A stretch of DNA of 64,000 bases from Halorussus limi (GTDB lineage: Archaea; Halobacteriota; Halobacteria; Halobacteriales; Haladaptataceae): assembly GCF_023238205.1 (NCBI RefSeq), contig NZ_CP096659.1:1426001-1490000 (forward strand), read 5' to 3'. Position 1 is the first letter of the stretch, and each line of letters starts with the position of its first letter. The notes beneath the pieces were generated by a model. That model saw nothing but the letters and a program-made list of their open reading frames with translations. It made no database searches and was not told the origin of the DNA. Position numbers and translations under genes: made by a program. Of the stretch, positions 14,666-30,739 are shown piece by piece.

Positions 14666-15177
14666 CAGTCCACACGACTTACTTCGGCGGACTCAACGCC
14701 ACCGTCTCGCCCGCAGACGACGCGCTCGTTCTCGGCGTCGTTCGGTATCCGAAGGAGTTCGTCCATCGCGTCACCGACCGGAACGTTCCGGCGGTCGCAC
14801 CGCCCGACGACCTGCTCGACGCATTCAAGACCGTCAAGGAGGCTGCCGACCGCGACGGTGTCACGAATCCGAGCGGGGCGGCCTGGCGGACCGTCGACTT
14901 CGAGGATCGGTATCGATCTCATCTCGACGGTTCCGGTCCTCGGCAGGTTCTCACCGAACTGCGCGACCGCGTCGCCCATCGCGATGTCTGGTTCGTCTGC
15001 TGGGAGAAGGACCCGCGGTACTGTCACCGCCGCGTGCTGGCCGAGGTCCTCCTGGAGGAGTGTGACGACCGAGTCGTCCATCATCCCGCCCCGGCGGACC
15101 TCGAAGAGTTCAGCGATGCCCAAGACGGTCCGGATATCGCTCGACTCACCGAGTTCTCTGGAGGTGGGACTGCGTGA
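14662..15177 (+). CDS. DUF488-family protein
   Basis: The protein has 171 residues. The diagnostic DUF488 signature is visible near residues 112-125: VCWEKDPRYCHRRVL, containing the conserved CxE and CHR elements. An N-terminal strand-turn reads TVHTTYFGGL. DUF488 proteins are small, of uncertain biochemistry, and often occur in mobile DNA; some have been proposed to be nucleic-acid related. The GTG start overlaps the previous stop by four bases. Confidence 0.75.
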   Translation: MTVHTTYFGGLNATVSPADDALVLGVVRYPKEFVHRVTDRNVPAVAPPDDLLDAFKTVKEAADRDGVTNPSGAAWRTVDFEDRYRSHLDGSGPRQVLTELRDRVAHRDVWFVCWEKDPRYCHRRVLAEVLLEECDDRVVHHPAPADLEEFSDAQDGPDIARLTEFSGGGTA

Positions 15178-15410
15178 CCTCCGACCAGGTTCTTGAGTCC
15201 ATCGATGCCGCGGTCGACCACGCGACTGTTAGACAGAGTTCGGTGACGGTTCGGGCACGACTGGCGCTCGCCCGAACCGCTCTTCGCGACGAACGGGACG
15301 ACGACGCCGTCGACCACCTCGGCGTCGCGCTCGACCGTGCTCGCCGCGACCGCGTCGCGGGCCTCGTGGAAGACGCACTCCGAGCAGTCGAGGAGGGCGG
15401 GTCGCGATGA
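15174..15410 (+). CDS. Small helical protein of the left-arm operon
   Basis: The protein has 78 residues and is almost entirely helical, rich in Ala, Arg and Asp. The repeated pattern ARLALARTALRDERDDDAV then LGVALDRARRDRV suggests a short helical hairpin or two TPR-like helices. The GTG start overlaps the upstream stop by four bases, and its own stop overlaps the next ATG. No family is recognised. Such small proteins often partner the next product in the operon, here the large winged-helix protein. Confidence 0.55.
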   Translation: MTSDQVLESIDAAVDHATVRQSSVTVRARLALARTALRDERDDDAVDHLGVALDRARRDRVAGLVEDALRAVEEGGSR

Positions 15411-17068: not shown

Positions 17069-17674
17069 CGCGCGACTGGATAGAGACATCTCTATCGTTC
17101 GCTGATTCTCCCCGGAACTCGTTTCCTCAAGCCTCAGTCGCTTACAACTGGGAAATTAGGCGAATTGGTGGGTTCATCGAACCGGTCTGGCGCGCGGTCG
17201 AAACCGGCGATGATCGATAGGTTCGGCATATTCTGCCGTGATAGCACGAGGTCGCGAGCCGCGCGAGACGGCGTTTGTTCCCGGCGAGCGGGAACATCCC
17301 CTTAGAGGGTGTGCCTAAGGGCACCCATCGAAAAAAGTACCCACCAGCTCCGCAAATTCAGCGGAACAGCGGAAATCGAGGTGGAGCGAGGAGAAGGAAA
17401 ACAGAGTGTGTCGAGTTGGAAGGACCAATCGTGCAGTCGCGCGCGGACGCGGTAGGCCGCGCTCGCCGGGCGCGTTCCAATGGTGTGCCCCCGCCCGTGG
17501 GGGGTTGTACTACTCGAATCGTAACACGCGCGTGCGTCTGGTGATAGGAAATTTTCACTTCGGCCGGATGCGGCCGCCGACCGACCACCTCGAACCAGTC
17601 CACGTGGGACTGTCGCTCGACTTGAACTCAGTCAAAACAGTCTTCGTCACCTGTTGGAGTAGGAGTCCCCCGAG
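17069..17674. other. Gene-free, dyad-rich stretch; possible origin region
   Basis: No convincing gene is present. Four strong inverted repeats are: GATAGAGA-CA-TCTCTATC (17079-17096, 11 bases after the stop); GTTCCCG-GCGAG-CGGGAAC (17277-17295); CCCTTAG with CTAAGGG (17299-17305 and 17315-17321), nested with GGGTG/CACCC; and CCCCC-GCCCGT-GGGGG (17488-17503). A short GTTCCAATGG precedes the last G/C string, loosely recalling haloarchaeal origin boxes. A run of six A's follows at 17330-17335. This could be an origin, a terminator cluster or both. Confidence 0.4.
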
Positions 17675-18229
17675 TCAGGTGGTATCGAGGTCGAAGCAGT
17701 CCCGGCACGGGCGGTAGTGGGTCTCGATAGTCTTGCGCTCGACACGGCGGAAGTCGCCGGACTGGTCGCATAGCGGACCGTCAGGAGTCGGCGCGTGCAT
17801 CACGTCGGTCGACGAATGCTGGACGAGGACCTCGCTCGTGAGCGACCCGAGTGCGGGCACGGTCGGCTTGACGACAGGGTCGAACACGGACGGTTCGGTC
17901 GGGCCGATTTCACAGGGGTCTGTCGCTGAATTCGTGCGAAATTCGACGGGACTCTCTGGCTGTTGGGCGAGGAACTCGAGAATCGATTCGTAGCACGACC
18001 GGCAGGGCTCAAGGCCACTTCGGCGGACCGTCTCGAGGTCGGCGGCCTGCCAGTCGGTGTCGGCCGACCCGGCTCGACATGTGGCCGTGGGCTCGTCGGG
18101 GTCGGCGGTCGGGTCGATACGATGGAAGACCGAGCGGCCGGGTTTGGCGACGACGCGGTCCTGAAGCGCGACACGGACGTTCGAGAACTGACTCAGCAAG
18201 CCGTCGCCGAAGACAGCGTCGCTACTCAT
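17675..18229 (-). CDS. Unknown cysteine-containing protein downstream of AbrB gene
   Basis: The protein has 184 residues. It has two similar halves: each has an arginine/cysteine unit (CRAGS...CRSCYES near residues 51-80; CDQSG...CRPCRDCFD near 153-180). This suggests an internal duplication with two metal sites. Its start overlaps the AbrB-like stop by 8 bases (18222-18229), so it is the last gene of a small minus-strand operon. No family is recognised; a haloarchaeal plasmid origin is likely. Confidence 0.6.
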   Translation of the reverse strand: MSSDAVFGDGLLSQFSNVRVALQDRVVAKPGRSVFHRIDPTADPDEPTATCRAGSADTDWQAADLETVRRSGLEPCRSCYESILEFLAQQPESPVEFRTNSATDPCEIGPTEPSVFDPVVKPTVPALGSLTSEVLVQHSSTDVMHAPTPDGPLCDQSGDFRRVERKTIETHYRPCRDCFDLDTT

Positions 18230-18419
18230 ACGGACTCAAGCCGTCGGCGGGACGGATGGTGATCGCGTCGTCACCTTGGTCGTAGGTGAACAGGAGCTGG
18301 TCGCCGATTTCGATGTCGAGGGTCTCGGTGAGGTCCTGCGGGATAGTGACCTGCGTACAACCCGAGCCGTGAATCGCCTTGCGAGTGTCGGCGAACACGG
18401 TGACGCTATCGTTACTCAT
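18222..18419 (-). CDS. AbrB/MazE-family DNA-binding protein
   Basis: The protein has 65 residues. It has the swapped-hairpin AbrB fold signature: GCTQVTIPQDLTETLDIEIGDQLLFTYDQ, followed by ITIRPADGL. Such proteins dimerise and bind DNA, as antitoxins or as chromatin-like regulators. No toxin of PIN or MazF type is adjacent; the next gene is the unknown cysteine protein, which could in principle be the partner. The ATG at 18419 lies inside the end of the preceding zinc-finger gene (overlap ATGAGTAA). Confidence 0.8.
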   Translation of the reverse strand: MSNDSVTVFADTRKAIHGSGCTQVTIPQDLTETLDIEIGDQLLFTYDQGDDAITIRPADGLSPYE

Positions 18420-18564
18420 TGCTGGCCTCCTGGCCGCAGCAGGCTCGATCGGCCTCGCAATCGTTGAATCGGCAGGTCGGGCAGAATTCGAGGCCGCCGT
18501 TCGAGCGGGTACAGGACGGGCACTCACACTCGCGGTTTCGTCCGGCGGGTGCGCGCGAACTCAT
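18412..18564 (-). CDS. 50-residue zinc-finger protein
   Basis: This gene is short but well supported. Its ATG overlaps the stop of the upstream 24-codon frame, and its stop overlaps the AbrB-like start. Eight cysteines in 31 residues fall as CECPSC (13-18), CPTC (28-31), C36 and CC (42-43), enough for two zinc sites. Such small CPxCG-type proteins are frequent in haloarchaea. Function is unknown; operon position suggests a co-regulator of the AbrB protein. Confidence 0.65.
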   Translation of the reverse strand: MSSRAPAGRNRECECPSCTRSNGGLEFCPTCRFNDCEADRACCGQEASNE

Positions 18565-18635
18565 GAGCGGTCACCGTCGGTCTTGTAGGTCGTTGCTGGT
18601 ATCTCGGTGTCAAGTTGGTAGTTCTCCATTGCCAT
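18561..18635 (-). CDS. 24-residue leading reading frame of the AbrB operon
   Basis: ATG at 18635 encodes MAMENYQLDTEIPATTYKTD and four more residues. Its TGA overlaps the ATG of the zinc-finger gene. It begins about 20-30 bases downstream of a TATA-like tract (AACTTTTTTACT, 18655-18666 on the minus strand), as a leaderless first gene would. It may be a small protein or a leader peptide that couples translation. Confidence 0.45.
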   Translation of the reverse strand: MAMENYQLDTEIPATTYKTDGDRS

Positions 18636-18654
18636 CCTGTCGAGAAACCGTGGT

Positions 18655-18666
18655 TAGTAAAAAAGT
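18655..18666 (-). promoter_or_regulatory. TATA element of the AbrB operon
   Basis: The minus strand reads AACTTTTTTACT, 20-31 bases upstream of the first start codon at 18635, the normal spacing for leaderless haloarchaeal transcripts. Confidence 0.45.
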
Positions 18667-18743
18667 TACTACTGGCGCGAAAACTAACCCTTCCTTTGCC
18701 GACAGGACACGCCAGCCACTAGATCACCGTTCAGTAGGCGTGC

Positions 18744-19712
18744 CTATTCTTCGACGATACGGTCAGCGATATCGGTCCAAACTACGCGATATTCCTCGAG
18801 CCCAGCCTTTCCGATTCCGGCTGTGATAAGATCCGACCAGTGAGGCTCGAACGCTTTCTCAAAGACGAATCCCGACTCACTATATGTGCGAATCATCTTC
18901 ACCCTTTCATCCAACGACGGGGGGTTCCAACTTACCACGGTCTCTATACTAATACTGCTCTGCTCGTCCAGAGAGGTGCTGTAGTCTCGGAGTTTGAATA
19001 TATAGGTGTCGTCTGCCAGATAGTAGCCGACTTCGCTATGGAGGCCAGTAGCCGTGTATTCCACGTAGTTATCGGTAACGCGGAGGCTGTCCCAACCAAG
19101 ATCAACCTTTCGAGGATGCTTGATGCTCTGCTCAATAGCCTTGGCCTGGCGTTCAGAAAGATCAGTTCGAGATAGTGGGTCTCCGTTCACGTCTTGAATA
19201 GACAGCCCCCATTCGTCCAGTGTTTCTGTAACTTCTGGATCATCAAATGGTGTGTTTGAGTCGTCGTACAATTCATCGACGATGTCCGTGAACTGGTTGT
19301 CGAGAGTATCCTCCTCAATCTCGTCAGGCGATGTGTGGCGAAACCGTTCTTGGAAGTCTTCAGTATCCGCAAGAAGTGATTTGATTGAGTCAATACGGTC
19401 GTCATTGCTGTACTTCTGTAAGAGTCGCGCCAGTTGGTCACGTTGTTCTGCCGAAAGGGAGAGGTCTGTAAGTTTATAAGATATCTTCTCTCTCTCATCG
19501 TCGGTTTCTGTCGAGTTCTCGGTATACAGTAGCCCTACATCGTAAAGCGCCCAGCAGAGGTCGTGACTTATTGCGGTCTTTGTTCCGAACCCCATCTTCT
19601 GGAATATCCTATCCATGACGGGGCGGGTCTTGAGATTAATCGGATGTCCGGAACCAGGTTTCGCCGTTACGTGGTACCCTGGCTGGGACTGAGAATCTTT
19701 CACGTATGGCAT
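18744..19712 (-). CDS. Unknown 322-residue cargo protein
   Basis: I do not recognise this protein. From the ATG at 19712 it begins MPYVKDSQSQPGYHVTAKPG. Residues 30-75 are basic and helical and look like a DNA-binding or winged-helix segment (TRPVMDRIFQKMGFGTKTAISHDLCWALYDVGLL). The rest is acidic and helical until about residue 200, then beta-rich (YVEYTATGLHSEVGYYLADDTYIFKLRDY). GC content is clearly below that of the flanking operons, which marks it as cargo. An in-frame upstream ATG at 19772 would add 20 residues. Confidence 0.6.
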   Translation of the reverse strand: MPYVKDSQSQPGYHVTAKPGSGHPINLKTRPVMDRIFQKMGFGTKTAISHDLCWALYDVGLLYTENSTETDDEREKISYKLTDLSLSAEQRDQLARLLQKYSNDDRIDSIKSLLADTEDFQERFRHTSPDEIEEDTLDNQFTDIVDELYDDSNTPFDDPEVTETLDEWGLSIQDVNGDPLSRTDLSERQAKAIEQSIKHPRKVDLGWDSLRVTDNYVEYTATGLHSEVGYYLADDTYIFKLRDYSTSLDEQSSISIETVVSWNPPSLDERVKMIRTYSESGFVFEKAFEPHWSDLITAGIGKAGLEEYRVVWTDIADRIVEE

Positions 19713-19823
19713 ATGCGAATGGGACTTCGTATGTAACTTGTATCCTCTGATGGGCCAGCAACCGAACCTCACCGTACGAACCGAAGAGTGTCAACAGAGT
19801 TAGTGACACAGCAGTGGATTTAC

Positions 19824-20096
19824 TCACGGACCAACTGACCAACTGGTTTCGGCCTTGACCGAGAGTTCGTCGGTGTCCAGGATATCAGCGATCTCCTCGG
19901 GCGTGACGTTGCCCTGTTTGACGGCGCGCTCCATCAACTCCTCGACCGCGCCGGTTGGGACGGCGGTCGTATCGCCGGCCATTTTGAGGTAGTAGTCGGC
20001 GGCTTGGTCGATGGCTTTGCTCTTGGTGTTCTGGCCGGTGGCTTCGAGGAGGTTCTCCAGACGACGCTCGCGCGAATCGGTCATTCTGAGACGCAT
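19824..20096 (-). CDS. Small ribbon-helix-helix-like regulator
   Basis: The protein has 90 residues if started at MRLRMTDSRERRL (ATG at 20096; a GTG 12 bases upstream is possible). The first 45 residues, RERRLENLLEATGQNTKSKAIDQAADYYL, fit the haloarchaeal ribbon-helix-helix type. The C-terminal half contains a second helical unit (VTPEEIADILDTDELSV) like a small helix-turn-helix. A TATA-like TTTAAATAC lies about 55 bases upstream. Repeats of TTGCACAC around its start may be its own operator. Confidence 0.6.
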   Translation of the reverse strand: MRLRMTDSRERRLENLLEATGQNTKSKAIDQAADYYLKMAGDTTAVPTGAVEELMERAVKQGNVTPEEIADILDTDELSVKAETSWSVGP

Positions 20097-20097
20097 G

Positions 20098-20262
20098 AAA
20101 TTGCACACGCACCCCCGAACGGTAGTTTTCTTCGGTCACTAAACCGGTTTCAGTATTTAAACGAACGCAGGTAAGGCGTGATCTGGCCGGGTGAGCGAGC
20201 GCGGTCGCGGTCGATCTCGAGGCGTTTTGCACACATCGTGAGCGCCCGGCGTGTGCAATTTT
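20098..20262. repeat. Inverted TTGCACAC repeats flanking the regulator promoter
   Basis: AAATTGCACACGC at 20098-20110 is the exact reverse complement of GCGTGTGCAATTT at 20250-20262. A third partial copy, TTGCACAC, lies at 20228-20235. The first copy overlaps the start of the ribbon-helix-helix gene, so an autoregulatory operator or looping site is plausible. No gene is evident from 20110 to 20520. Confidence 0.5.
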
Positions 20263-20524
20263 CGGCGTCGATTTCTCTGGGCGTGTGACCATGGGGGGTC
20301 AACAAAGAGAGGCGGTATAGTTTCTGAGGAACCCTTCCTTAGAAATCTATCCTACATATTCCCCACCTCTATTTGTAACAGGTTGAATATGGATACGGTA
20401 GAAGAAACCGCCGGTCAAACCTTGGTGCCCCGTTATCGCACGGGGGATAAACGGGGAAACACACTGTTCGTACAACCGGTACGTTAATAACTTATTAGCG
20501 TGTACGTGTAGGTGTGAAGTGGCG

Positions 20525-20566
20525 CGGGAGACAATGATCCCTCACTGAAGGGGTATGAGCCTCCCG
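20525..20566 (+). other. Nested stem-loop, possibly a transposon-end or omega-RNA relic
   Basis: CGGGAG (20525-20530) pairs with CTCCCG (20561-20566) and encloses CCCT/AGGG (20539-20542 and 20549-20552). The layout resembles the structured right ends of haloarchaeal IS1341-type elements, but no transposase or tnpB gene accompanies it. It lies 17 bases beyond the stop of the DUF3800 gene and could instead be a terminator. Confidence 0.35.
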
Positions 20567-20582
20567 TTGCTACTCTGAAGTT

Positions 20583-21284
20583 CTACCTGAAGAAGCGAAA
20601 GTCGTTGAGTGTACTCGCTGCCGTTTCACAGTCTGTTTTCAGTAAATTCCGTCTCCACGAGTACGCCGCAAGGTCTGAAAGCTGGATTCCGGGTGTTCCT
20701 CGGCTGTCTCGAGTTTCAAACGAAACAGGCGGTAGTTCGTCCGACGCGAGGTTAGAAACTTCTCGAAGACGCTGAGCAGGGTTCTGCCAAACCTCCGCAT
20801 CTAGATAGACGCGGACTTGATCAAAGTCACCCGTTTCTAATCGATCTTCTTGACGTAGTGGCGAAAGGATAGACGCCAAAGAGATAGTTTTCAGTGTTTC
20901 TCCTGTCTGCTGAGGGCCAACTAAGTCTTCGATAGCGTCCGTACCCGCATCCGAGTTCACCTCATGGAGTGTATACCGCATCGGTTTGCTCACTTGCCAA
21001 GGGTAGTTTGTTTGTTGAATCGACGAATCATCGTGGATGCCGCTGCGGAGATACGCGAAGAGCGTGTCCAATACTGGTGGCGGTGTCGACGCTCCCTTCA
21101 ATTCCCCAATCGAATCCTTACCGAGCTCACTCCCTTCAATGGTGGACATGAGGCGGTCTTTTGTCGGCATTAGAACCTCATTTGGATTTGGTCGTGCGGA
21201 GACTACCCAACATCCAGCTACCGCGTAACAGCGATCTGTCTGCGGCTCCCCGCTCTCATCAACAAAGATGTAGAGATAAGACAT
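20583..21284 (-). CDS. DUF3800-family protein
   Basis: The protein has 233 residues. The family landmarks are visible: YLYIFVDESG at residues 4-12 (with Asp9-Glu10), ELKG at 61-64, an aspartate in RVYLDAEVW, and QLSDLAAYSWRR near the C-terminus. DUF3800 has an RNase H-like fold with acidic residues expected to bind metal, and the family is frequent in phage and defence islands; a nuclease role is inferred, not proven. It shares strand with the Ubl operon upstream but is 506 bases away, so it is probably a separate unit. Confidence 0.82.
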   Translation of the reverse strand: MSYLYIFVDESGEPQTDRCYAVAGCWVVSARPNPNEVLMPTKDRLMSTIEGSELGKDSIGELKGASTPPPVLDTLFAYLRSGIHDDSSIQQTNYPWQVSKPMRYTLHEVNSDAGTDAIEDLVGPQQTGETLKTISLASILSPLRQEDRLETGDFDQVRVYLDAEVWQNPAQRLREVSNLASDELPPVSFETRDSRGTPGIQLSDLAAYSWRRNLLKTDCETAASTLNDFRFFR

Positions 21285-21790
21285 GCAAATTATTTACACT
21301 CTGATACAGGGTCCTTCGTCGGCGTAGTTGACTCCAATCTCGAATCACTTGATTTGTCACCGACCACATCCATGCTCTAACTTAGAGTGAGAGTCAGTTG
21401 GGATAAAAAAGCACCCGTTCGCGCGCGCATGAGGGCGGATAGACCGTTTCGGAGGGACTGCAGGATGGTGGGTGGCTACGTGGGTAGTCAGTGGCAGTAG
21501 GGTTGCTGGTGGTCAGGTTGGTGGCTGCGGTCTGGAGGTCACAAGGGTTACGAGAGTCGTATGTTCTGACCGAAGCGGACTACGAAGCTGTGCAGGAGAT
21601 AGAGGGTAGGTTGGAGAACGAATTCCGGCGAAGTGAACGACTGTGTTTTCTATCGGCGGCGGTGAGCAGCGCGTGACATGTACAATTCTGGACGAGCGCT
21701 CACGTTCGCGTGTAATCACTGGACCGCGTGGCTAGAAGGGTAGTAGTGAAAATTCAATCTCCTTTGTCAGACAGTAACTGAAACGTGGAA
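21285..21790. other. Gene-free stretch between DUF3800 and the JAMM-E1 gene
   Basis: I find no convincing gene in these 506 bases. A plus-strand open frame (21491-21676) has a plausible helical stretch (YVLTEADYEAVQEIEGRLENE) but a low-complexity beginning, and may be a decayed fragment. The block around 21450-21540 is G/T-rich with many GGT repeats. Confidence 0.4.
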
Positions 21791-23215
21791 TCAAAACGAT
21801 AACAAAGAAAGTTGGTGAACAGATGGTGACCACTGCCCTTTTTGACAAACGCAGTCGTCAGCTCGATCGGTCGCATACCGCTGGAGATCACACGCCCAGA
21901 GGTTGAAGACCACCATTTCATCCCAGATATTCTCCTGATTCAGGAGGTAGGCGACCGCTTGCACAGCCCCCATAGTAGCTGCCATGGTCGTCATAAAGAC
22001 GTTACTCGGCTCTGGCCCCTCGTCTCGACGGTAGCCATCCTTTACTTCGCGGTCAACCAACTCTTTTGGCATATTCTCTTCACGGATTTTGCCGGGGTCG
22101 AGCACATCAAGGCACCACAGGCAAGGACCACCATTTACAACGTGCCGGGCGTCCGCGAAAAGGTCTAGCACCAGACCGTCATTCGCGGTCGGACGCGTTC
22201 CTACGTCGATGTACGGAATACCGTAGAGTACCGAGAGTTTGTTCAGGTAGTCCCGAGGGGTGTGTCGGTCAGTACAACCGAAGATGACGTCGCAGTCAAG
22301 CAACTCCTCGTCGTAGCTACCAGTCGTCACGTCGTCCTGAATCGTTTCGACCTCCGCAGTCGCCGTCCGACCGAGATGGTCTTCTAGGACCTTCGTTTTC
22401 GCTGTTCCTTCCCGCGCTTGTTCGAGTGTTAGGCTATAGAGCCTGTTTGCATTTGAGATTTCTGCCGTATCTGGATCGGCTAACAGTAGCGACCCAATTC
22501 CAGCTCGCGCACACTGAATGGCTGTTGCACTGCCAGTTCCCCCGAGTCCGACGATACCGACTTTTGCCGAGGTGAGACGTGCTTGTCCGAGACGGTCGAT
22601 GAGCTGCAATTGCCGGTCGGCAATCTCCAACGGGTCGACCTCGTTAGTAGTCGACGTTTCGCCCATTCCATCGCCAACGTCGCCAGTGAGGTCTCGTGGA
22701 ACAGCGTCGTCGAGATTTCGAACGGACCGAATTGGCCGTGATCCACAGCAATTCACCACATCAACCTCGTGTTGGTCGTCCGCATAGTCTATACCGGTCC
22801 AGAGCTTTCCTGTGACATCGTTTCCGTGGATGACGAGGCTCCCAAATGCGCCTTGGGCTGAGGACTCAACGAAGTCTCGAAGCCAAGCCTCGTGCATCAG
22901 TTCGTCGGCATACGAGAATCCCGGCGGGCCATCGGGATGACTGTGTACAAAGAACGGAACTCTGTCGGTCTGGAAAGACTCACCCATCACCTTCGACTTG
23001 TATCTCGTCGTCGGGCGGAGACGCCGCTGCTCTTGGATGTTCCAACGGTTCTCGTAGTTCGGTGGGGCTACTTCTTGGTCTACGACCAGTCGGACTCCAG
23101 ACGCCGTTTCGACAGGGCGGGTGAGTACGAACCCACCATCTTCCAGTGGAGCAGACTGGTTACAACGGTCTCGTAGTGAGTCCCAGACGTCTCCCAGAAT
23201 AGTGACTCGAATCAT
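21791..23215 (-). CDS. JAMM deubiquitinase-like / E1-like activating enzyme fusion
   Basis: The protein has 474 residues. Residues 1-140 are a JAB/JAMM metalloprotease: Glu25 in APLEDGGFVL, then HSHP (91-94), Ser101 and Asp104, the HxH-P-(6)-SxxD zinc site. Residues 190-440 are a ThiF/E1 adenylation domain: GLGGTGS (223-229), a SNANR arginine, then CTDRHTPRDYLN and a probable zinc site with CLWC (365-368) and CVC (455-457). The E1 half would adenylate and transfer a ubiquitin-like protein; the JAMM half would process it or remove it. It is the last gene of Ubl-E2-JAMM/E1, joined to the E2 gene by TGATG. Fusion of both activities in one chain is known for some bacterial operons of this class. 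Confidence 0.88.
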   Translation of the reverse strand: MIRVTILGDVWDSLRDRCNQSAPLEDGGFVLTRPVETASGVRLVVDQEVAPPNYENRWNIQEQRRLRPTTRYKSKVMGESFQTDRVPFFVHSHPDGPPGFSYADELMHEAWLRDFVESSAQGAFGSLVIHGNDVTGKLWTGIDYADDQHEVDVVNCCGSRPIRSVRNLDDAVPRDLTGDVGDGMGETSTTNEVDPLEIADRQLQLIDRLGQARLTSAKVGIVGLGGTGSATAIQCARAGIGSLLLADPDTAEISNANRLYSLTLEQAREGTAKTKVLEDHLGRTATAEVETIQDDVTTGSYDEELLDCDVIFGCTDRHTPRDYLNKLSVLYGIPYIDVGTRPTANDGLVLDLFADARHVVNGGPCLWCLDVLDPGKIREENMPKELVDREVKDGYRRDEGPEPSNVFMTTMAATMGAVQAVAYLLNQENIWDEMVVFNLWACDLQRYATDRADDCVCQKGQWSPSVHQLSLLSF

Positions 23216-23628
23216 CAACTGAGCTCCCAGAGTCGTTGTTCGATGAACGCCACGTGATCGACGAGATCATTATAGGCCGGGTCCCAATCGGGGTCGCTGC
23301 TATCGCCACGGTGCCACGAGAACCGCCGCCATTCTCGTCCTGCAAACCTCTTCGTGCAGTCCGCTTTCTCGGGAAGCTCACCGTTCTGGAGCGTTACTTC
23401 GGTTTCGGTCCAGAACATGTCGAGAGCCGTGCGCGGATAATGCCGTGGACCGTGGATATTGACCAGAAGGTCGGTGATCTCCGGGTCGAACTGCTCGGGA
23501 AGCTCGAAGTCTCTGAAGATAACGTGGGCCGTGGTCGAGGACTGCTTGATGTCAATGTCGAAACCGTCGGCTTCCAGCGTCTCGATGTCGGCGACGAGTA
23601 CGTCGGGGAGGTCGTTATCGCCCGGCAT
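23215..23628 (-). CDS. E2-like conjugating protein (Prok-E2_E type)
   Basis: The protein has 137 residues. It fits the prokaryotic E2 family E pattern: LLVNIHGPRHYPRTALDMFW (55-73), then CTKRFAGREWRRFSWHRG (91-108), an aspartate/tryptophan segment, and a C-terminal helix DLVDHVAFIEQRLWEL. Cys91 is the only cysteine in the protein and so the only candidate for a thioester; His106 and Trp100 are the conserved partners. The start at 23628 lies inside the end of the Ubl gene (14-base overlap). The N-terminal extension to 23706 is rejected because it duplicates the Ubl gene in another frame. Confidence 0.85.
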   Translation of the reverse strand: MPGDNDLPDVLVADIETLEADGFDIDIKQSSTTAHVIFRDFELPEQFDPEITDLLVNIHGPRHYPRTALDMFWTETEVTLQNGELPEKADCTKRFAGREWRRFSWHRGDSSDPDWDPAYNDLVDHVAFIEQRLWELS

Positions 23629-23953
23629 TGCGGTCCTTCTCGACGGCTCGGAAGAACAGCGTTCTCTCGGTGGCGGTCCGGTCGATGACCTTATTGAGGG
23701 AGACATCGGTTCCCTCCGTGTCGCCCTCGTTCTCCAACTGGAAGACGTCGAAGCTACTGGGGGTACGCCCTGTCGCCGCGACGATCTCCTTCACCGTCGG
23801 CTTCGTTTTCTCGATGTCGACCCGCCGCCGGTTCATCTTGATCTGCGCGAGCGGCCGCTCTCCTGCTTTGGACCGATTTTGACCGCCGTCAGTCCGCAGT
23901 TGCTTACTCGTCTGATCGTCTGTGCTAACGTTCGCGTGGTTTCCTGCATTCAT
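23615..23953 (-). CDS. Ubiquitin-like protein of the conjugation operon
   Basis: The protein has 112 residues. A polar, probably disordered N-terminus of about 34 residues precedes a beta-grasp domain (36-104). The pattern is a first beta hairpin (LAQIKMNRRRVDIEKTKPT), a helix (VKEIVAATG), then FDVFQLENEG, an acidic loop and a final strand TLFFRAV. This agrees with the prokaryotic multiubiquitin/Ubl group found beside E2 and E1 genes. The tail ends NAGR and lacks a terminal di-glycine, so maturation or a non-standard C-terminus is implied. It is the first gene of the operon. Confidence 0.75.
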   Translation of the reverse strand: MNAGNHANVSTDDQTSKQLRTDGGQNRSKAGERPLAQIKMNRRRVDIEKTKPTVKEIVAATGRTPSSFDVFQLENEGDTEGTDVSLNKVIDRTATERTLFFRAVEKDRNAGR

Positions 23954-23962
23954 AGTAATGCA

Positions 23963-23983
23963 CGCACTATCTCCCGTAGTGCG
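23963..23983. promoter_or_regulatory. Inverted repeat at the start of the Ubl operon
   Basis: CGCACTA (23963-23969) and TAGTGCG (23977-23983) form a perfect dyad with a 7-base spacer, ending 10 bases before the Ubl start codon. It could be an operator near the transcription start or a hairpin in a short leader. No clear TATA box is seen at the usual distance; the closest candidate is a TGGATATGGATA tract about 55-65 bases upstream. Confidence 0.4.
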
Positions 23984-24136
23984 GGGGCGCACCCAATGCC
24001 CTGACGACCGTATCCATATCCACAAATTCCTACCTGGATACACATCCAGATCTCGGAAGCGGACCGTAGTCGCCACTCACCCTAACCTCCGCTGGTTCAG
24101 GCTTCAGGTACGTAGATTCACTTTGCCCCGGGAAAT

Positions 24137-24153
24137 CCCGGCTTAATGCCGGG
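24137..24153 (+). other. Hairpin resembling a TnpB omega-RNA 3' end
   Basis: CCCGGC and GCCGGG arms with loop TTAAT, preceded by GGAAAT and followed by GTGGACC. Right ends of IS1341-type elements in haloarchaea have this layout, from memory. There is no tnpB gene upstream on the same strand, so if the match holds it is a solo relic. Confidence 0.35.
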
Positions 24154-24591
24154 GTGGACCTAGCCCGGTGGGCGCGAATCGTTTCAGACCCGCGTTGACT
24201 CAAAGTTTATCCGAAAGGGTAATAAGAGTTTCGTTCCGTGGTAATAGTTCACGCGCCCTCTATATGCTATACTTGGTTTGGGTAGCTAATGGCCCTAATG
24301 TTCACGCTTTACTAACGCGTCGGATTACACTTTCACTCCGGTCTCCAAACCCCTTTATATGCAAAAACTGGTTAAGGTAAGCCAAAAACAGCAGATATGC
24401 ACTTAAAGTATAAAAGAGGCTGATTCACTTTCACTTCACTTCAAGTAGATTGGCTGATGATAGCGATATGTCTAAGAAGGCTGAATTGCCGGTAGGAACA
24501 ATCAGTCCCACCGGGCTAGGTCCAACTGGACCCTCAATGGCATTGGTTATAAAGATAGGGGAAATGGTCTTTCTTTCCTATAGACCCACTG

Positions 24592-24607
24592 TCTATCTAT
24601 CTATCTA
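24592..24607 (+). repeat. (TCTA)4 microsatellite
   Basis: Four perfect TCTA units followed by TTTA, 79 bases upstream of the rhomboid-like gene. The track may be slippage-prone and lies where a promoter is expected. Confidence 0.7.
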
Positions 24608-24686
24608 TTTATAGAGATTCCCCATATCAGTATCCTTTTCACCTTCTTGGAAAATTACTTGATATTCTATTTATAATAGCATTGTA

Positions 24687-25583
24687 ATGGAGCGACTTGA
24701 AGAAGCTTACGTCCAAAATGAATCCATGCGTCAAAAGGCCTCTTCTCTCTTCTCCTTTGAAAGACAGGTATTCGATATCTTCGCCATCTCCGCAGTCGCG
24801 GTCCTCCTCTTCCTCGTAACAAAAACCCACACGTCGTTCCAGAACCAACTTGTCCTTTTCTACGACAATCCGGCACCCCACGCCTTCTACACGACACACT
24901 TTGTCCACGAATCGGCAGCGCACCTCCGCGGGAACCTCATAAGCTACCTCGTGGTCGTACCCCTTACCTACCTCATCTCACTCAGAGCTGGCCGCCACCG
25001 TGAGTTTCGCCTTGGGTTCCTCGCTATCCTCTTCGTCCTCCCACCGATCATCTCTCTTGTTAGTCTGCTCGGTCTCGACCTCGTCATCCAGACGATCTTC
25101 GGCTTCGACCCGAACGTCCGCTCCAGTCGTGGCTTCTCCGCACTCGCTGGCGCGTTCGTCGGGATGCTAATGGTCGCGGTGGCCGACCTCTTCCGGGATA
25201 TTGCCGACCGCGAGGGGTCGCTTTGGCCGGTCATCGGGCTGATGTTCTGGTACGGGATAGCGGTCGCGTTCTGGGGTGTGTTCCAGTATCTGGTGAGTCT
25301 GCTGACCGTGTTGCTGGTCCTTCTTCCGACGGCATACGCAGTCTGGCTCGTCAAGAAGGTCGAGGGGCAGTACAATATCGTGGACGGGATGCAAGCAGGT
25401 GGCTGGCTACGCGGGCGGCCCGTGACGGTTGGTCTGCTCGGGGTCGGGTTCTTCGCCACGGTCTGGGGGACGCAAGGGCTATTGGCGTTTCCGTGGTTCG
25501 AGGGTGGGACGAATACGTTGTCGCACTTTGTGGGTATCCTTAGCGGAATCTCTCTAATGATATTCTCTAGACCGCTTGTTTAA
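24687..25583 (+). CDS. Rhomboid-like intramembrane protease
   Basis: The protein has 298 residues with about seven hydrophobic helices. An N-terminal cytosolic segment (1-27) precedes helix 1. The HESAAHLRGNLISYL segment (74-88) supplies the conserved His and Asn83 of rhomboid helix 2. RGFSALAGAFVGM has the serine of the GxSG motif as Ser151, with GFSA replacing GFSG. SHFVGILSGI near the C-terminus supplies the catalytic His280. Serine-histidine rhomboids cleave membrane proteins. The first 300 bases are AT-richer than the rest. It faces away from the Ubl operon and is convergent with the next gene. Confidence 0.75.
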   Translation: MERLEEAYVQNESMRQKASSLFSFERQVFDIFAISAVAVLLFLVTKTHTSFQNQLVLFYDNPAPHAFYTTHFVHESAAHLRGNLISYLVVVPLTYLISLRAGRHREFRLGFLAILFVLPPIISLVSLLGLDLVIQTIFGFDPNVRSSRGFSALAGAFVGMLMVAVADLFRDIADREGSLWPVIGLMFWYGIAVAFWGVFQYLVSLLTVLLVLLPTAYAVWLVKKVEGQYNIVDGMQAGGWLRGRPVTVGLLGVGFFATVWGTQGLLAFPWFEGGTNTLSHFVGILSGISLMIFSRPLV

Positions 25584-25586
25584 TTT

Positions 25587-26717
25587 TTATTCCCCATTTG
25601 AAACGCTAGTTCTGTAAGATAACTTTTCTTCTGACTTTCTAAGCAGAACGATTACAAGCATAAAGAAAGAACCTATGAAGTAGACCATTCCCCAGAGAAG
25701 TCCTGCTACTAATAACTCTCCTGTGTATCCTGTTACCATATTCGGAAATCCAATTGTGAAAATTAAAACGAGAGTTGCCGAACTTAATGCGATAAAAATC
25801 GACCGCACTATCAGGTTCTGGAGCTTTTCCATTTCTATTGAATAGGCCCTCCAAGTAAAGGAGAAAAGCGAGAGAATCAAGAAGAACGTGAGTAGTCTCG
25901 CTTCAATGGGGCCGTTCCTTAGTGTCTTGAGGATTGGTGGGTAGTTAGCGACAGCATAAAGAGTTAAAAACAGAACTCCGACCTCAATCCGGAAGTCTGC
26001 GGTAATATATGGATAAACATCCGCAAAGGTGTAATTCCTCTGTAGGTAGAAACCCAGCCACATTGTCAATCCTAATAGACTTAGACTTGCTAATTGAGCA
26101 TGGTAATAGATGAAAGAAAACACGAAAATGAGTGCTGAAGCCGTAAATGTAACTACCCCATTCCTTAGGGAATTATAGCACTTCTCCCAATTTTCTTTCG
26201 CCTCAGAGAGTATATCTTCATTATTCTCGATGATGGTTTTATACTCCCTGAGTACTTGTCGTCGCTCTTCAGAATCAGTGTCCGGGTCAGAATGTTTTGA
26301 GAGGACGTTCCTCCCTTCAATACTCGGCTGAAGAGTAGAGGGATTCATCACCTTATAGGCAAAAACAGGAACACCAACAAACAGGTTAGATATTGAGAAA
26401 GAAACCAGAAGAAAAACAGAAATAGAGAGTAGGATGGCAATCAACGTGGCTTGGGATTCACCGATGAACCCGATAGCAGAATGAATCTGATTACTGAGCC
26501 GATTTATTTGTAAAATATTGTTCGGGAGAGAAACTCCTCCACTAGTTGATGCTAGTGCCGAAATAACTCCGATTGTAACACTAATTGCAGTCAAGACAAT
26601 GCGAAGTAGCCGACTTGCCTGGTTTTCAAATCTTCTGTGTGCCTCAATTTGATAGTCTACACGCCGTTTAACTTCTTCATAAAGAAAGTCCCAGTCACCA
26701 TCCGACTTCAATTTCAT
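25587..26717 (-). CDS. AT-rich multi-pass membrane protein, unknown
   Basis: The protein has 376 residues and no family I can name with confidence. It has a soluble N-terminus (1-38), two helices (39-60 and 88-125), a long charged loop (126-170), then about six more helices. The N-terminal helix plus membrane pair resembles SLATT-type effectors of defence systems, but this is only a resemblance. Codon use and GC content (around 40 percent) differ sharply from the rest of the window, indicating recent transfer. It ends 3 bases from the rhomboid-like stop, convergent. Confidence 0.65.
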   Translation of the reverse strand: MKLKSDGDWDFLYEEVKRRVDYQIEAHRRFENQASRLLRIVLTAISVTIGVISALASTSGGVSLPNNILQINRLSNQIHSAIGFIGESQATLIAILLSISVFLLVSFSISNLFVGVPVFAYKVMNPSTLQPSIEGRNVLSKHSDPDTDSEERRQVLREYKTIIENNEDILSEAKENWEKCYNSLRNGVVTFTASALIFVFSFIYYHAQLASLSLLGLTMWLGFYLQRNYTFADVYPYITADFRIEVGVLFLTLYAVANYPPILKTLRNGPIEARLLTFFLILSLFSFTWRAYSIEMEKLQNLIVRSIFIALSSATLVLIFTIGFPNMVTGYTGELLVAGLLWGMVYFIGSFFMLVIVLLRKSEEKLSYRTSVSNGE

Positions 26718-26924
26718 GTGATAAACCTAAGATAGTAATTTTGTCTGATTGGGATTAGTCTTGTGATTTTACAGAGTATGCCAGAGAGCCAAAACACTCT
26801 AACTTGAGCAATGGAAGGGGTATAAATCATCAACTTAGAGCAGGGATACTTCTGTCTCGCTCAATTCCGTCTGTAACAAGATATCAAGCTAGACTGGCTC
26901 TTTATTTCTCAGTTGGACATCGGT
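26718..26924. other. Short AT-rich spacer
   Basis: This spacer is AT-rich and holds the promoter of the membrane-protein gene (TATA-like tracts near 26735-26770). No gene is seen. Confidence 0.4.
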
Positions 26925-27179
26925 CTACTTTCCGTCCAACTCTCCGGAAGAAAGCTCTTCGTCGAGATATCGGCGTCCGAGTTCTGTGAGCGAGTAGTAC
27001 CCGTCGCCGACTCCTTCAAGCAGTCCCTGTTCGGTAAGTACGCGGCAACGCTCTCCGGCGTAATTCCGGTGAGTATCGATATTTCTCCCGATTACGGCCG
27101 GTGGGACCTCTCCGGCGTCTCGGACGTACTCCAAGATAGCGTCATCGACGGGCACCATCCAGTCCGCACGCTCACGCAT
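26925..27179 (-). CDS. PhiH1-repressor-like winged-helix regulator
   Basis: The protein has 84 residues from the ATG at 27179. The order MRERADWMVPVDDAILEYVRDAG, VIGRNIDTHRNYAGERCRVLTEQGLL and YSLTELGRRYLDEEL is that of the haloarchaeal phage PhiH1 repressor family: a winged helix with a recognition helix around residues 33-48. Such proteins repress lysogeny or plasmid functions. It is divergent from the right-arm operon, and twin palindromes lie 54-89 bases upstream of its start, where it could control both directions. Confidence 0.82.
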   Translation of the reverse strand: MRERADWMVPVDDAILEYVRDAGEVPPAVIGRNIDTHRNYAGERCRVLTEQGLLEGVGDGYYSLTELGRRYLDEELSSGELDGK

Positions 27180-27232
27180 GGTACAGAAAGCGAATATCAG
27201 GACCATAGTACCCCTACAACTAAATCAGAAAC

Positions 27233-27268
27233 TGTGCGTACGCAAATCCAGAACTTTGCATATGCAAA
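27233..27268. promoter_or_regulatory. Twin palindromic operators in the divergent regulator region
   Basis: TTTGCATATGCAAA (27255-27268) is a perfect 14-base palindrome. TGTGCGTACGCAAA (27233-27246) is the same dyad with one mismatch. Their centres are 22 bases apart, two helical turns, so two dimers could bind on one DNA face. They lie between the repressor gene and the right-arm operon, the natural place for the repressor to act. Confidence 0.6.
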
Positions 27269-27275
27269 AGATATA

Positions 27276-27515
27276 ATGCCTATCAACATATCGGACTCTA
27301 TTACGGAAGCTACACGCGGACCCGTCACTCCCCGATGGGTCCATCTCGAAAACGAAGCGGGCCGGTGCTTGGGACACCGGGTCCGCGATAGCTCCCGTGG
27401 AGTAGGCACGGAAGCCATGTTCGCAATCGCTACGCGGGGTCTTGAAAGCCCCGAACGACCGACGGAATCGCACGTCAACCGAACGCCGACCCAACCCGAG
27501 GTGACCGCGGCATGA
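27276..27515 (+). CDS. Unknown 79-residue protein, first gene of right-arm operon
   Basis: ATG at 27276 follows the perfect palindrome by 7 bases, and the stop overlaps the PadR start as ATGA, which supports a real coupled gene. Composition is polar with no clear motif (PINISDSITEATRGP at the start, NRTPTQPEVTAA at the end). The frame remains open upstream, but that part is antisense to the repressor gene and unlikely to be used. Confidence 0.45.
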   Translation: MPINISDSITEATRGPVTPRWVHLENEAGRCLGHRVRDSSRGVGTEAMFAIATRGLESPERPTESHVNRTPTQPEVTAA

Positions 27516-27865
27516 GCGAAACCGCGGCGGTCGGCTTCCCCGAGTTCCACGCCTTCGAGCGCGACCTCCTGTTCGCAGTCTGCGCACTCGAACGCGACGG
27601 CGACGCGCCCCACGGCCTCGCCATCAAGTCCTACCTCGAAGCCGAGTACGACGAGGAAATCAACCACTCGCGACTCTACCAAAATCTCGACGCGCTAGTT
27701 GAGCGCGGCCTCCTCCGGAAGGGCGCGAAGGACGACCGTACGAACGAGTACATCACCACCGACTCCGGGCGACTCCTGCTCGAACGCCGCGCGAAGCGCC
27801 GCGCCGACCAACTCGGTCTCGACCTGCGCGACTCGACCGCGGAAAATGGTGGTGATTTGGAATGA
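27512..27865 (+). CDS. PadR-family transcriptional regulator
   Basis: The protein has 117 residues. The winged helix of the PadR type is visible: FERDLLFAVCALERDGDAPHGLAIKSYLE, then INHSRLYQNLDALVERGLL and DDRTNEYITTDSGRLLLERR. PadR proteins bind promoter dyads as dimers through a C-terminal helix, here short (residues 88-110). It is translationally coupled to the preceding small gene. In haloarchaeal mobile elements PadR genes are common next to the integrase operon and probably regulate it. Confidence 0.85.
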   Translation: MSETAAVGFPEFHAFERDLLFAVCALERDGDAPHGLAIKSYLEAEYDEEINHSRLYQNLDALVERGLLRKGAKDDRTNEYITTDSGRLLLERRAKRRADQLGLDLRDSTAENGGDLE

Positions 27866-27954
27866 TTGGCTCACCCCCGCGCCTGCCTTTAGTTTCACTT
27901 TCACTCAACTATAGAACTCAACTTTTTACACACGAGTCCATCATTCCGTCTCGG

Positions 27955-28014
27955 ATGATTCGGAAACAAATCTCCCACGACGAAACTGTCGCCTCGCAGG
28001 AGGTGCGTGCCTGA
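27955..28014 (+). CDS. 19-residue coupled reading frame
   Basis: ATG at 27955 encodes a short basic peptide (MIRKQISHDETVASQEVRA) whose TGA overlaps the next ATG as TGATG. A TATA-like CTTTTTACA (27922-27930) lies 25 bases upstream, so this is the likely first codon of a leaderless transcript. It may serve mainly to couple translation of the next gene. Confidence 0.4.
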   Translation: MIRKQISHDETVASQEVRA

Positions 28015-28637
28015 TGCAGTGCCCCGAGTGCGGTACGGCGATTCTCGGTGTCGCAACCCGCGGCCCCAACACGCACGTCTTCGACCCCTGCGGCTGTTCG
28101 GTGCCCGTCCACGACATCGCCGCCCTCGACCGCGGCCGCGGCCTCGTGACCGACGGCGGCGAAGAACAGTACGGGGCAGCCACGCGATTCAAGGCGAACA
28201 ACGCCGACACCGAGACGATTCTCCTCGGACGCTACGACGACGCTACGAAGCTCAGCGTCCCGGAAGTCCACGACTGCGCGCCAGTTCGCGCCCGTCGCTA
28301 CTACGAACCGGTGACCGTGGTCAGCTTCCCGTACACGATGTCGCGAGAGGAAGCCATCGAGTGGCTTGACGACCACCGCCATCACCCCGACCTCGCCGAC
28401 TACGACTGGAGCGCCCACGACCAACAGGACCTCCTTGACGTGATCGTGGACAATCGAAGCTCGTACCGGATGCAACTCTCTGACTTCGAGCGCCAACTCG
28501 AAGGCGTCCGCGCGGTCGGCGAGCGAACCAAGCAAGAACTCGAAGAGATTCGGGAGGCGATGACCGACGCGATGCACAACGGGCCTCCCGTCGAAGTCAA
28601 CTGCCTCGACGCGCCCGAGGAGGTCGATTCGGCATGA
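28014..28637 (+). CDS. Unknown protein with N-terminal zinc ribbon
   Basis: The protein has 207 residues. MQCPECGTAILG and DPCGCSVPVHD in the first 35 residues form a zinc ribbon. The middle is beta-rich (YYEPVTVVSFPYTMSREEAIEWL), and residues 145-195 form a charged coiled coil (LSDFERQLEGVRAVGERTKQELEEI). The architecture suggests a DNA-binding or scaffold protein. It is coupled to the next gene by ATGA. No family is recognised. Confidence 0.6.
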   Translation: MQCPECGTAILGVATRGPNTHVFDPCGCSVPVHDIAALDRGRGLVTDGGEEQYGAATRFKANNADTETILLGRYDDATKLSVPEVHDCAPVRARRYYEPVTVVSFPYTMSREEAIEWLDDHRHHPDLADYDWSAHDQQDLLDVIVDNRSSYRMQLSDFERQLEGVRAVGERTKQELEEIREAMTDAMHNGPPVEVNCLDAPEEVDSA

Positions 28638-28960
28638 GCGCCGACCGAACTCGCGCCGGCCGTGGCCTCGAAACCCGGACGTTCCGGGTCGGTCCGGAGC
28701 GGACGGTGGCCTACGGCCCGGCGGCGAGCGGTCGCGAAGAGTGGGCGCTCCGGTTCACCGCCGACTCCGGCGAGCGCGTCGCAGTTCGCCTTGACGAAGA
28801 TGCGATGTACGCGCTCTGGACCGAGGTCCACAACGTGCCGTGGCCTCGCGACGAGACTGAGCGCGGTGACCTCCGCCGCGAGGTCGCGGCCCGCGCCGAA
28901 CGCGCCGATGCCGAGACGCTTCGCCAAGTCCTCGACGTTCTCGGAGGTGACCAGTTGTGA
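28634..28960 (+). CDS. Unknown small protein of the right-arm operon
   Basis: The protein has 108 residues, is acidic and mixed alpha-beta. It has a strand-rich front (TFRVGPERTVAYGPAASG; EEWALRFTADSG) and a helical back rich in Arg, Ala and Glu. The start overlaps the previous stop (ATGA), and its stop overlaps the next GTG. Similar proteins accompany integrases in haloarchaeal elements as I recall; function is unknown. Confidence 0.55.
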   Translation: MSADRTRAGRGLETRTFRVGPERTVAYGPAASGREEWALRFTADSGERVAVRLDEDAMYALWTEVHNVPWPRDETERGDLRREVAARAERADAETLRQVLDVLGGDQL

Positions 28961-29574
28961 CCGACCTCGACTGGCCCGCTGGCTTCGACCGGACCGACGC
29001 AGTCCGCCAGACCACGAACGACCGCTTCGAGATTTCGCTCTCGAAGGCGTTCGACGAACTCGAAACCGAATTGGACCGTCTCGGTGTCAAGGACGGTACC
29101 GACGGCGCACCCGGCTACCGGTACAGCTTCGACGCGCCCCAGCGCCAGACCGACCAGCGACCCTACGCGCGAGCGAACCCCGACGACCCCGGCTTCGTCC
29201 TGCAGTGGACGATGGACGGCAACGACTACGCGGTGGCCTGCGACCGCTACTCGCGGCTTCGAGACAACGTCCGGACCGTCGGCCTCTACGTCCGCGAGAA
29301 GCGCAAGATGGAGGAGCGACCTGTCGAGACCGGCGAGAGCGAGTTCGCCAACGCACGACTCCCGTCCGGCAACGAGAACGCCGACGCGGTGGTCGCACAC
29401 GAACCGCCCCACGAGGTGTTGGGCGTCGCTCGAGACGCCGCTCCCGAAGTCGTTCGCGGTGCGGCCCGCCAACTGAAGAAGAAGTACCACCCGGATGCGG
29501 GCGGCGACGAGGAGCGGTTCAAACGCGTCGTAGACGCCGAGAACGCCATGCTCGACGGGCGGGGTGAGCGATGA
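28957..29574 (+). CDS. J-domain-containing protein of the right-arm operon
   Basis: The protein has 205 residues. The C-terminal 60 residues are a J domain: HEVLGVARDAAPEVVRGAAR, then QLKKKYHPDAGGDEERFKRV with the HPD triad that stimulates DnaK ATPase. The N-terminal 120 residues are of unknown fold (YRYSFDAPQRQTDQRPYAR). The protein may recruit the host chaperone for plasmid or virus replication, as some phage J proteins do; that is inference. The GTG start overlaps the previous stop. Confidence 0.72.
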   Translation: MTDLDWPAGFDRTDAVRQTTNDRFEISLSKAFDELETELDRLGVKDGTDGAPGYRYSFDAPQRQTDQRPYARANPDDPGFVLQWTMDGNDYAVACDRYSRLRDNVRTVGLYVREKRKMEERPVETGESEFANARLPSGNENADAVVAHEPPHEVLGVARDAAPEVVRGAARQLKKKYHPDAGGDEERFKRVVDAENAMLDGRGER

Positions 29575-30596
29575 ATCCGGAGAAACTCTCGCCGCGCGAA
29601 GCGTGGCAGCGGTACATCGACCGCCGTCGCACCGAACTCACCCAAGGGTCGATTTCGACCTACAACTACCGGCTGAAGCTCTGGTGCGAATGGTGCGAGC
29701 GGCAGGGCATTGAGACGGTCAGCGAACTCTCCGGTTGGACGTTCGACCAGTACGAGTCGATGCGGGCGGGGAAGGACCTCGCTCCGAACACGCTCCACAA
29801 CGAAATGGAGACGTTGAAAGACCATGTCGCGTACCTGGAGCGCATCGAGGCGGTCGACGACGGTCTCAGCGAGAAAATCAACGTCCCGGACGTTCCGCAA
29901 GACGAGCGGTCGCGAGAGACGAAACTCGACACCGACGACGCGACTCAACTGATTCGCCACTACCGGAACAGCGAGAGCGACTACGGGACCAACTTCCACG
30001 TCGTCCTCGAACTCGCGTGGCACACCGGCGCCCGATTAGGCGCGCTTCGCGGCCTCGACCTCCGCGACTACGACTCGGGCGAGCAGTACGTGGAGTTCGT
30101 TCACCGACCGCAGTCGGACACTCCGCTGAAGAACAAGACGCACGGCGAGCGCGTCGTCAGCCTCCGTCGAGAGGTCTGCAACGTGGTCGACGCGTACATC
30201 CGCAACGAGCGGAAGGACGCGCACGACGACCACGGGCGGCAACCGCTGTTCACGACGATTCAGCGAAATCGTCCCCAGAAGGGCACGTTCCGGACGTGGT
30301 CGTATCGCGCGACGATGCCGTGCGTTACGGGCGGGTGTCCGCACGGCTACGACCCGGATACCTGCGAGTTCCGAAACCACACGCACGCGAGCAAGTGCCC
30401 CTCGTCGCGGTCGCCCCACCACATCCGGACGGGGTCGATTACGTGGCACCGCGACTGCGGCTTCCCGCGAGAGGTCACCGCCGAGCGGGTCAACGCATCG
30501 CAGGACGTGATTGACGAGTTCTACGACAAGGCGACGAAGATGGAGCGGATGCAGCTCCGGCGTCGCCCTCACCTCGACAAACTGGAAATCGAGTAA
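29571..30596 (+). CDS. Tyrosine recombinase (integrase)
   Basis: The protein has 341 residues. The N-terminal SAM-like core-binding domain (about 5-90) is followed by the catalytic domain with Arg155 (HTGARLGAL), a lysine around 187-189, the HxxR motif His283/Arg286, His293 and the nucleophile Tyr318 (EFYDKA). All catalytic residues are present, so the element may be active. Cysteines at 251, 256, 265 and 276 form an extra zinc-like insertion between Arg and HxxR, typical of haloarchaeal plasmid integrases. It directs recombination at the tRNA-Pro core just downstream. Confidence 0.92.
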   Translation: MNPEKLSPREAWQRYIDRRRTELTQGSISTYNYRLKLWCEWCERQGIETVSELSGWTFDQYESMRAGKDLAPNTLHNEMETLKDHVAYLERIEAVDDGLSEKINVPDVPQDERSRETKLDTDDATQLIRHYRNSESDYGTNFHVVLELAWHTGARLGALRGLDLRDYDSGEQYVEFVHRPQSDTPLKNKTHGERVVSLRREVCNVVDAYIRNERKDAHDDHGRQPLFTTIQRNRPQKGTFRTWSYRATMPCVTGGCPHGYDPDTCEFRNHTHASKCPSSRSPHHIRTGSITWHRDCGFPREVTAERVNASQDVIDEFYDKATKMERMQLRRRPHLDKLEIE

Positions 30597-30601
30597 CTAC
30601 C

Positions 30602-30739
30602 ATGACCGAGACTTTCACCAACGAGACGTTCGTCGAACAGAGCCGCGAATCTCCGGCCGGTCCCTACCCGGGCGGTCCCATTACATATAAAAGTGAAGCG
30701 GTCATTTTCACCCTTCTAAGCGCCTCAGAATCGGTCTGA
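30602..30739 (+). CDS. Short frame running through attR
   Basis: ATG at 30602, 5 bases after the integrase stop, opens a 45-residue frame. It crosses the att core (encoding PGGPI at that point) and ends inside the decayed left-end copy. In the excised circle the same start would join the left arm and encode a different tail. It may be a real small gene whose 3' end is swapped by integration, or chance. Confidence 0.3.
   Translation: MTETFTNETFVEQSRESPAGPYPGGPITYKSEAVIFTLLSASESV
30668..30681 (+). repeat. attR core
   Basis: CCGGGCGGTCCCAT, an exact copy of the attL core at 13678. Confidence 0.85.

Follow-up and report, generated by a model that had tools for sequence, protein, structure and literature searches.

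To our knowledge, archaeal lysogeny switches have been described in molecular detail for very few systems. In phage lambda, the CI repressor acts between divergent promoters at tandem operators spaced by about two turns of the helix. The locus described here likewise has divergent promoters with putative tandem operators at about that spacing; unlike in lambda, the repressor is a winged-helix protein, the promoters are of the archaeal TATA/BRE type, and cooperativity is suggested by the spacing. A nearer system is the RepR-operator system of phiH (PhiH1) of Halobacterium, which has a homologous repressor and a divergent early transcript, as in the window (the whole stretch of 64,000 nucleotides of Halorussus limi DNA that was analysed). 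The likeness extends to a 22-bp repeat at -82/-60, counted from the repressor start, and to a long structured early leader. In contrast, the operator sequence of phiH differs, and phiH has no match to the leader model R1 described below. According to a review (PMC4284463), phiH Rep binds the T4 promoter region, insertion of ISH23 between the operator and the promoter abolishes control, and phiH, unlike the window element, is not integrated. The phiH operators may already be published. In the pleolipovirus SNJ2 and its relatives HRPV9 and Halfgib1, a PhiH1-like repressor gene and an integrase operon are divergent, and the operon carries the leader RNA seen in the window, whereas operator sequence and gene content differ. 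Humcor2, considered here through its leader and attP alone, resembles the window in both, its attP being annotated as matching tRNA-Pro.

The repressor gene of the window (26925-27179, reverse strand) encodes a PhiH1-type winged-helix protein of 84 aa with its ATG at 27179. The protein matches phrog_2440, 'transcriptional regulator' (E=3.6e-31), and is 38% identical to RepR encoded by phiH repR (tblastn, E=7e-8). Matches to it in virus records number 19 by tblastn, duplicates counted, and the family is present in 310 of 391 genomes of the haloarchaeal class (E<=1e-8). As in phiH, the gene is divergent from the early operon. A TATA-like element putatively assigned to the repressor promoter (TACTAT on the reverse strand, 27204-27211) precedes the ATG by about 28 bp, so that the repressor mRNA would be leaderless. 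On the forward strand, the TATA-like element GATATAAT (27270-27277) of the rightward early promoter has the same position as the TATA-like stretch of phiH T4, its counterpart. From the TATA spacing and from the phiH T4 start, mapped 126 bp before repR (-126), the early transcript is estimated to begin at 27298-27304. In phiH, the T6 start is annotated at the repR start codon and the T5 start 8 nt before the first ORF, and the T4 leader (L048 2190-2375) has a predicted fold in which a very stable stem at the 5' end closes two hairpins (z -5.9).

A sequence-only reading of the window had pointed to two 14-base palindromes at 27233-27268, centred 22 bases apart between the repressor gene and the right-arm operon. 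The coordinates are right, only the order of naming being reversed, and the gene map bears out the placement, with the repressor gene to the left on the reverse strand and the rightward operon to the right. The inner palindrome, TGTGCGTACGCAAA (27233-27246), is centred at -60 from the repressor start; it pairs at 6/7 dyad positions and has a perfect 10-bp core at 27235-27244. The outer palindrome, TTTGCATATGCAAA (27255-27268), pairs at 7/7, is centred at -82, hence 22 bp from the inner centre, and abuts the early-promoter TATA box. Perfect palindromes of >=14 bp occur six times in the window, so a single one is not rare. When pairs of 14-mers were required to have dyads of >=6/7 each, to lie 14-34 bp apart and to differ at <=4 positions, this pair was the only one in the window. 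Of 100 locally matched Markov shuffles, 45 contained at least one such pair, and pairs at offset 21-22 summed to 8 over the 100 shuffled windows. At <=1 mismatch, TTTGCATATGCAAA occurs once in the 4.62-Mb genome, at this site. These window statistics are only suggestive and not sufficient proof, and the case for operators therefore rests on comparison with relatives.

Upstream regions were compared for 31 loci: the window, 20 loci with repressors 64-83% identical, L014, and nine loci with repressors <=59% identical. The window and 15 of the 21 close relatives (the 20 loci and L014) have, upstream of their repressor genes, sites within 4 mismatches of TTTGCATATGCAAA, against a background of 10 matches per 98,607 positions. 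At this threshold none was found in the other six (L019, L030, L031, L034, L035 and L037) or in any of the nine distant loci. Conservation of the palindromes beside homologous repressor genes, on which the sequence-only reading had staked its case, was thus found among close relatives. Counted from the repressor start, nearly all sites fall at -112, -90, -82 to -80 or -60 to -58. A pair at about -82/-60, spaced by 22 bp, is seen in the window, in L022 and in L038, and several Natrinema-type loci have up to three sites, at -112, -90 and -60, with the outer two 22 bp apart. In two of the six relatives without such sites, L019 and L031, the DNA just before the repressor gene resembles a further repressor gene. 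A second repressor-like gene apparently stands in tandem just upstream in L009 and L031, and in L009 the leader RNA is about 1.8 kb upstream.

The same geometry can be followed into far more diverged loci. Among the regions between leader and repressor, 84 rows had a repressor match; 82 of them were 85-165 long and two fell outside that length, and cutting the 82 at 70% identity left 72 non-redundant intergenic regions. Operator sequences vary widely among these 72 haloarchaeal loci. Dyad symmetry nevertheless peaks at -82 (z 7.4), -60 (z 5.3) and -112 (z 4.4), direct-repeat offsets peak at 22 (z 6.5) and then 21 (z 4.4), and AT content has maxima at -28 and -97, where the two TATA boxes are expected. 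An offset of 21 or 22 is the best one in 31.4 of the 72 loci, ties being shared, versus 7.3 in shuffles. Dyads of >=5/8 occur at -82 in 27 loci and at -60 in 25, and at both positions in 10, so many sites are imperfect. In phiH, the repeat at offset 22 matches at 13/16 positions and has its centre at -82 (pair -82/-60), and SNJ2 has an 11/16 repeat at offset 22 located as in phiH. Across eight virus records, the best offset is 22 in two (phiH and SNJ2), 21 in one (BJ1) and another value in five. Operator geometry is conserved and operator sequence is not, which would fit a co-divergence of repressors and operators into immunity groups. Chance palindromes were considered as an explanation and are ruled out by the recurrence in close relatives together with the geometry in the 72 diverged loci.

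The kept sites and geometry, the homology to RepR and the same geometry in phiH support the switch-like arrangement under a PhiH1-type repressor that the sequence-only reading had proposed. The palindromes might instead serve another regulator, such as the PadR protein or a host factor, with the PhiH1-type protein acting elsewhere; PadR proteins bind palindromes, and a PadR gene lies directly downstream. However, the sites are fixed to the repressor start, their geometry is kept across varied first downstream genes, and phiH combines the same repressor family and geometry with a Rep reported to act at the T4 promoter, all of which makes such a regulator very improbable here. The pair very probably represents operators of the PhiH1-type, lysogeny-type repressor, and would add a new member to a kind of system already known. 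Cooperation between the two operators is a separate matter. If the outer site served the early promoter and the inner site the repressor promoter independently, the 22 bp would reflect only a fixed promoter distance, and in accordance with this the inner site keeps its place at -60, the TATA box of the other promoter lies directly against the outer site, and the three-site version adds 30 bp. Yet L028 and L033 keep 22 bp between their -112 and -90 sites despite an altered distance to the repressor promoter, which favours a constraint between repressors and leaves independent sites unlikely. Because the spacing between the outer sites is kept though a third site shifts their distance from the repressor, the operators likely act as a cooperative pair.

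Between the operators and the PadR gene lies a structured leader, which the sequence-only reading had overlooked. Its hairpins and conserved first-ORF start were seen in an alignment of 16 loci, the window among them, from which the covariance model R1 was built; R1 paired only the hairpins P3 and P5 and was neutral to the helices P1 and P4. The window match spans 27299-27457 on the forward strand (C1:1453299-1453457, E=2.5e-31). In order along this strand come segment A, the 5' strand of P1 (27303-27312), the P2 hairpin with arms GGACCCGTC and GATGGGTCC (27318-27342), the P3 hairpin (27357-27386), segment B, which can partner A in P1 or A' in P4 (27389-27398), segment A' directly before the ATG (27408-27416), and the P5 hairpin within the start of the first ORF (27435-27453). 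P3 and P5 show covariation, fitted in both cases to the model. The leader is very probably a functional structured RNA. It had no Rfam match in the window at E<=1, and six loci had none at E<=0.1; a literature search, with most subscription papers beyond its reach, brought up no account of this RNA. Matching the leader by an exact DNA pattern gave 0 matches, which says little for so strict a pattern.

R1 matches occur in 192 of 391 genomes of the haloarchaeal class (E<=0.01). When 196 genomes sampled from the phylum were searched, with membership of the class read from the genome listing, R1 was found in 20 of about 33 class genomes and in only 1 of about 163 others (E=0.006). Four of 10 virus records carry it upstream of genes leading to the integrase, namely SNJ2 (E 1e-30), HRPV9 (E 2.5e-20), Halfgib1 (E 1.3e-18) and Humcor2 (E 3.6e-14). 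No strong match was obtained in phiH, phiCh1, BJ1, Humcor1, Harhisp1 or LSV-48N, the last being a weak negative with a leader region that spans the record start, and a search of viral contigs for related loci found none. The repressor family stands divergent beside the leader in 30 of the 30 best loci and in 84 of 94 aligned rows; the 10 rows lacking it include L031:3112, with only 6 upstream bases. In L093, L096, L099, L100, L102 and L127, a short divergent ORF looks winged-helix-like by eye, and there the leader may be paired with unrelated repressors, while in L088, L101 and L143 no clear repressor was seen beside it. An ATG stands at the micro-ORF start position in 92 of the 94 aligned copies. 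In L055-L069, the P5-encoded motif [ST]RGLE[SG]PD is joined to the N-terminus of first proteins that differ in kind (as judged by eye, PadR-like, CxxC proteins and others), which suggests a portable leader cassette.

Two stretches are complementary to segment B: A, close to the predicted 5' end, and A', just before the ATG. The two helices that B can form with them exclude each other. Both were scored on a 94-row alignment fitted to neither. P1 pairs in 84.2% of cells with two-sided changes at 8 of 10 pairs and a covariation of 0.308 versus 0.176 in shuffles; many of its pairs are G-U, including 24 and 32 cells at two pairs. P4 pairs in 84.0% of cells with two-sided changes at 8 of 9 pairs; its covariation of 0.152 versus 0.044 in shuffles exceeds that of slid versions, which reach 0.121, by a narrow margin. 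G-U pairs occur in only 2 cells of P4, and its central pair is mismatched in 57 of 92 cells, so that the evidence for P4 at the RNA level is weaker than that for P1. With these reservations about P4, two mutually exclusive covarying helices are present. Parsimony on a tree of 92 rows built from the remaining columns counted co-changes of A, B and A' at five positions at least 5, 11, 1, 2 and 1 times, at least 20 in total. Energy predictions, made for 91 of the 94 rows (L031:3112 and two short L053 pieces left out), favour P1 in 55 of 91 copies by a median of 1.2 kcal/mol, and when A is removed, P4 forms in 74 of 91 predicted folds. This predicted near-balance suits a switch and does not prove one. 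In the window, P1 is favoured (-69.6 versus -63.9 kcal/mol), 3 of 200 shuffles fold equally well, and a longer helix competes with P2 and P3 in the predicted minimum-energy fold.

Two other readings of A, B and A' have to be weighed against an RNA switch. They might be inverted repeats at the DNA level, for example a second operator bound by PadR; in favour of this, P4 nearly lacks G-U pairs, and A and A' are nearly identical, as repeated half-sites for a protein would be. But P1 is rich in G-U pairs, P3 and P5 covary as hairpins, and the motif is fixed relative to the predicted transcript start and the start codon. Moreover, the phiH and BJ1 leaders, unrelated by R1, fold alike, with a helix near the 5' end that closes two hairpins, and a purely DNA-level role is quite unlikely. 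Alternatively, P1 alone may be real, in a static leader that serves stability or ribosome access, with P4 as a by-product. The stronger covariation and the G-U pattern of P1 speak for such a leader, as does the mismatched centre of P4. However, A' follows B through base changes, all three segments having changed together at least 5 and 11 times at two positions, which is unexpected if A' is unpaired, and a static leader is on balance rather unlikely. That A, B and A' form an RNA switch controlling how the first early gene is translated is the reading we lean to, at somewhat better than an even chance. Bacterial translational riboswitches and attenuators resemble this leader in having two exclusive helices that share one strand beside a start codon, whereas the window leader would be an archaeal viral early leader with no ligand known and no Rfam family matched.

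Paired operators followed by a leader RNA switch make up what is probably the best explanation of the locus as a whole. According to this model, repressor dimers on the outer site (-82) would block TFB/TBP at the rightward early promoter, as expected for a bound repressor at an operator that abuts the TATA box. The inner site, on the same face of the DNA at a distance of two helical turns, would strengthen the block by cooperative binding and, lying upstream of the leaderless repressor promoter, may also tune that promoter. When repression falls, the early transcript would start at about 27300 with the structured leader at its 5' end. Pairing of A with B would leave the first start codon free; with A unavailable, B would pair with A' beside the start codon and translation would be off. 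Both this polarity and its trigger are proposals. More broadly, there is about an even chance that a portable, two-layer lysogeny cassette is common to the temperate viruses of haloarchaea and related elements, comprising operators with fixed geometry, a fast-diverging repressor and a three-strand RNA switch that gates translation of the first early gene. If so, about half of haloarchaeal genomes would carry an RNA switch. The apparently new element here is the leader RNA, uncatalogued in Rfam, added to a known repressor-operator module; if it switches, archaea and archaeal viruses would have in it a natural RNA switch of wide distribution. Fixed geometry with changing sequence also offers a convenient means of assigning operators, and likely immunity groups, in haloarchaeal proviruses. 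Genetic tools exist for a Natrinema laboratory strain (PMC13107129), in which the leader of SNJ2 is directly testable.

The rightward operon begins on the forward strand with a micro-ORF of 32 aa (27417-27515, starting MFAIATRGLESPERP), the stop of which overlaps the start of the gene for the PadR-family regulator (27512-27865; PF03551, E=2.5e-9; phrog_4278). It continues with an ORF containing a CPEC motif (28014-28637) and another ORF (28634-28960), both without a family match, a J-domain protein gene (28957-29574; PF00226, E=5.8e-7; phrog_9210) and a tyrosine integrase gene (29571-30596; phrog_1, E=2.8e-22); the PHROGs comparison covered 8 proteins at 24.7-30.6 kb. The sequence-only reading had suggested control of integrase and PadR expression, and both genes do lie within the rightward cluster of the window; elsewhere this cluster includes PadR in Humcor1 and the integrase in SNJ2, HRPV9 and Harhisp1. 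As a gap of about 150 bp separates PadR from the next assigned ORF, one transcript through to the integrase is only plausible. In SNJ2, orf1-3, comprising the integrase and its upstream neighbours, are described as co-transcribed (PMC13107129). The window integrase shares 67% identity with the LSV-48N enzyme and 38% (96% coverage) with that of SNJ2, placing it in the SNJ2 family. A 13-bp att repeat, CCGGGCGGTCCCA, lies in the 3' end of tRNA-Pro(TGG) at 13678-13690 and recurs after the integrase at 30668-30680, both on the forward strand, which delimits an element of about 17.0 kb (13678-30680). The att of an SNJ2-type provirus is likewise given as 13 bp (PMC8371274). The window element is an integrated, archaeal virus-like element with an SNJ2-type integrase. 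Similarity on both sides continues just past the 13-bp repeat. Inside the element, on the reverse strand at 20586-24076, lies cargo resembling a prokaryotic ubiquitin-like conjugation operon, with a weak Multi_ubiq match (E 0.005), Prok-E2_E (E 5.6e-21), a JAB+ThiF fusion (E1/JAB) and a DUF3800 protein.
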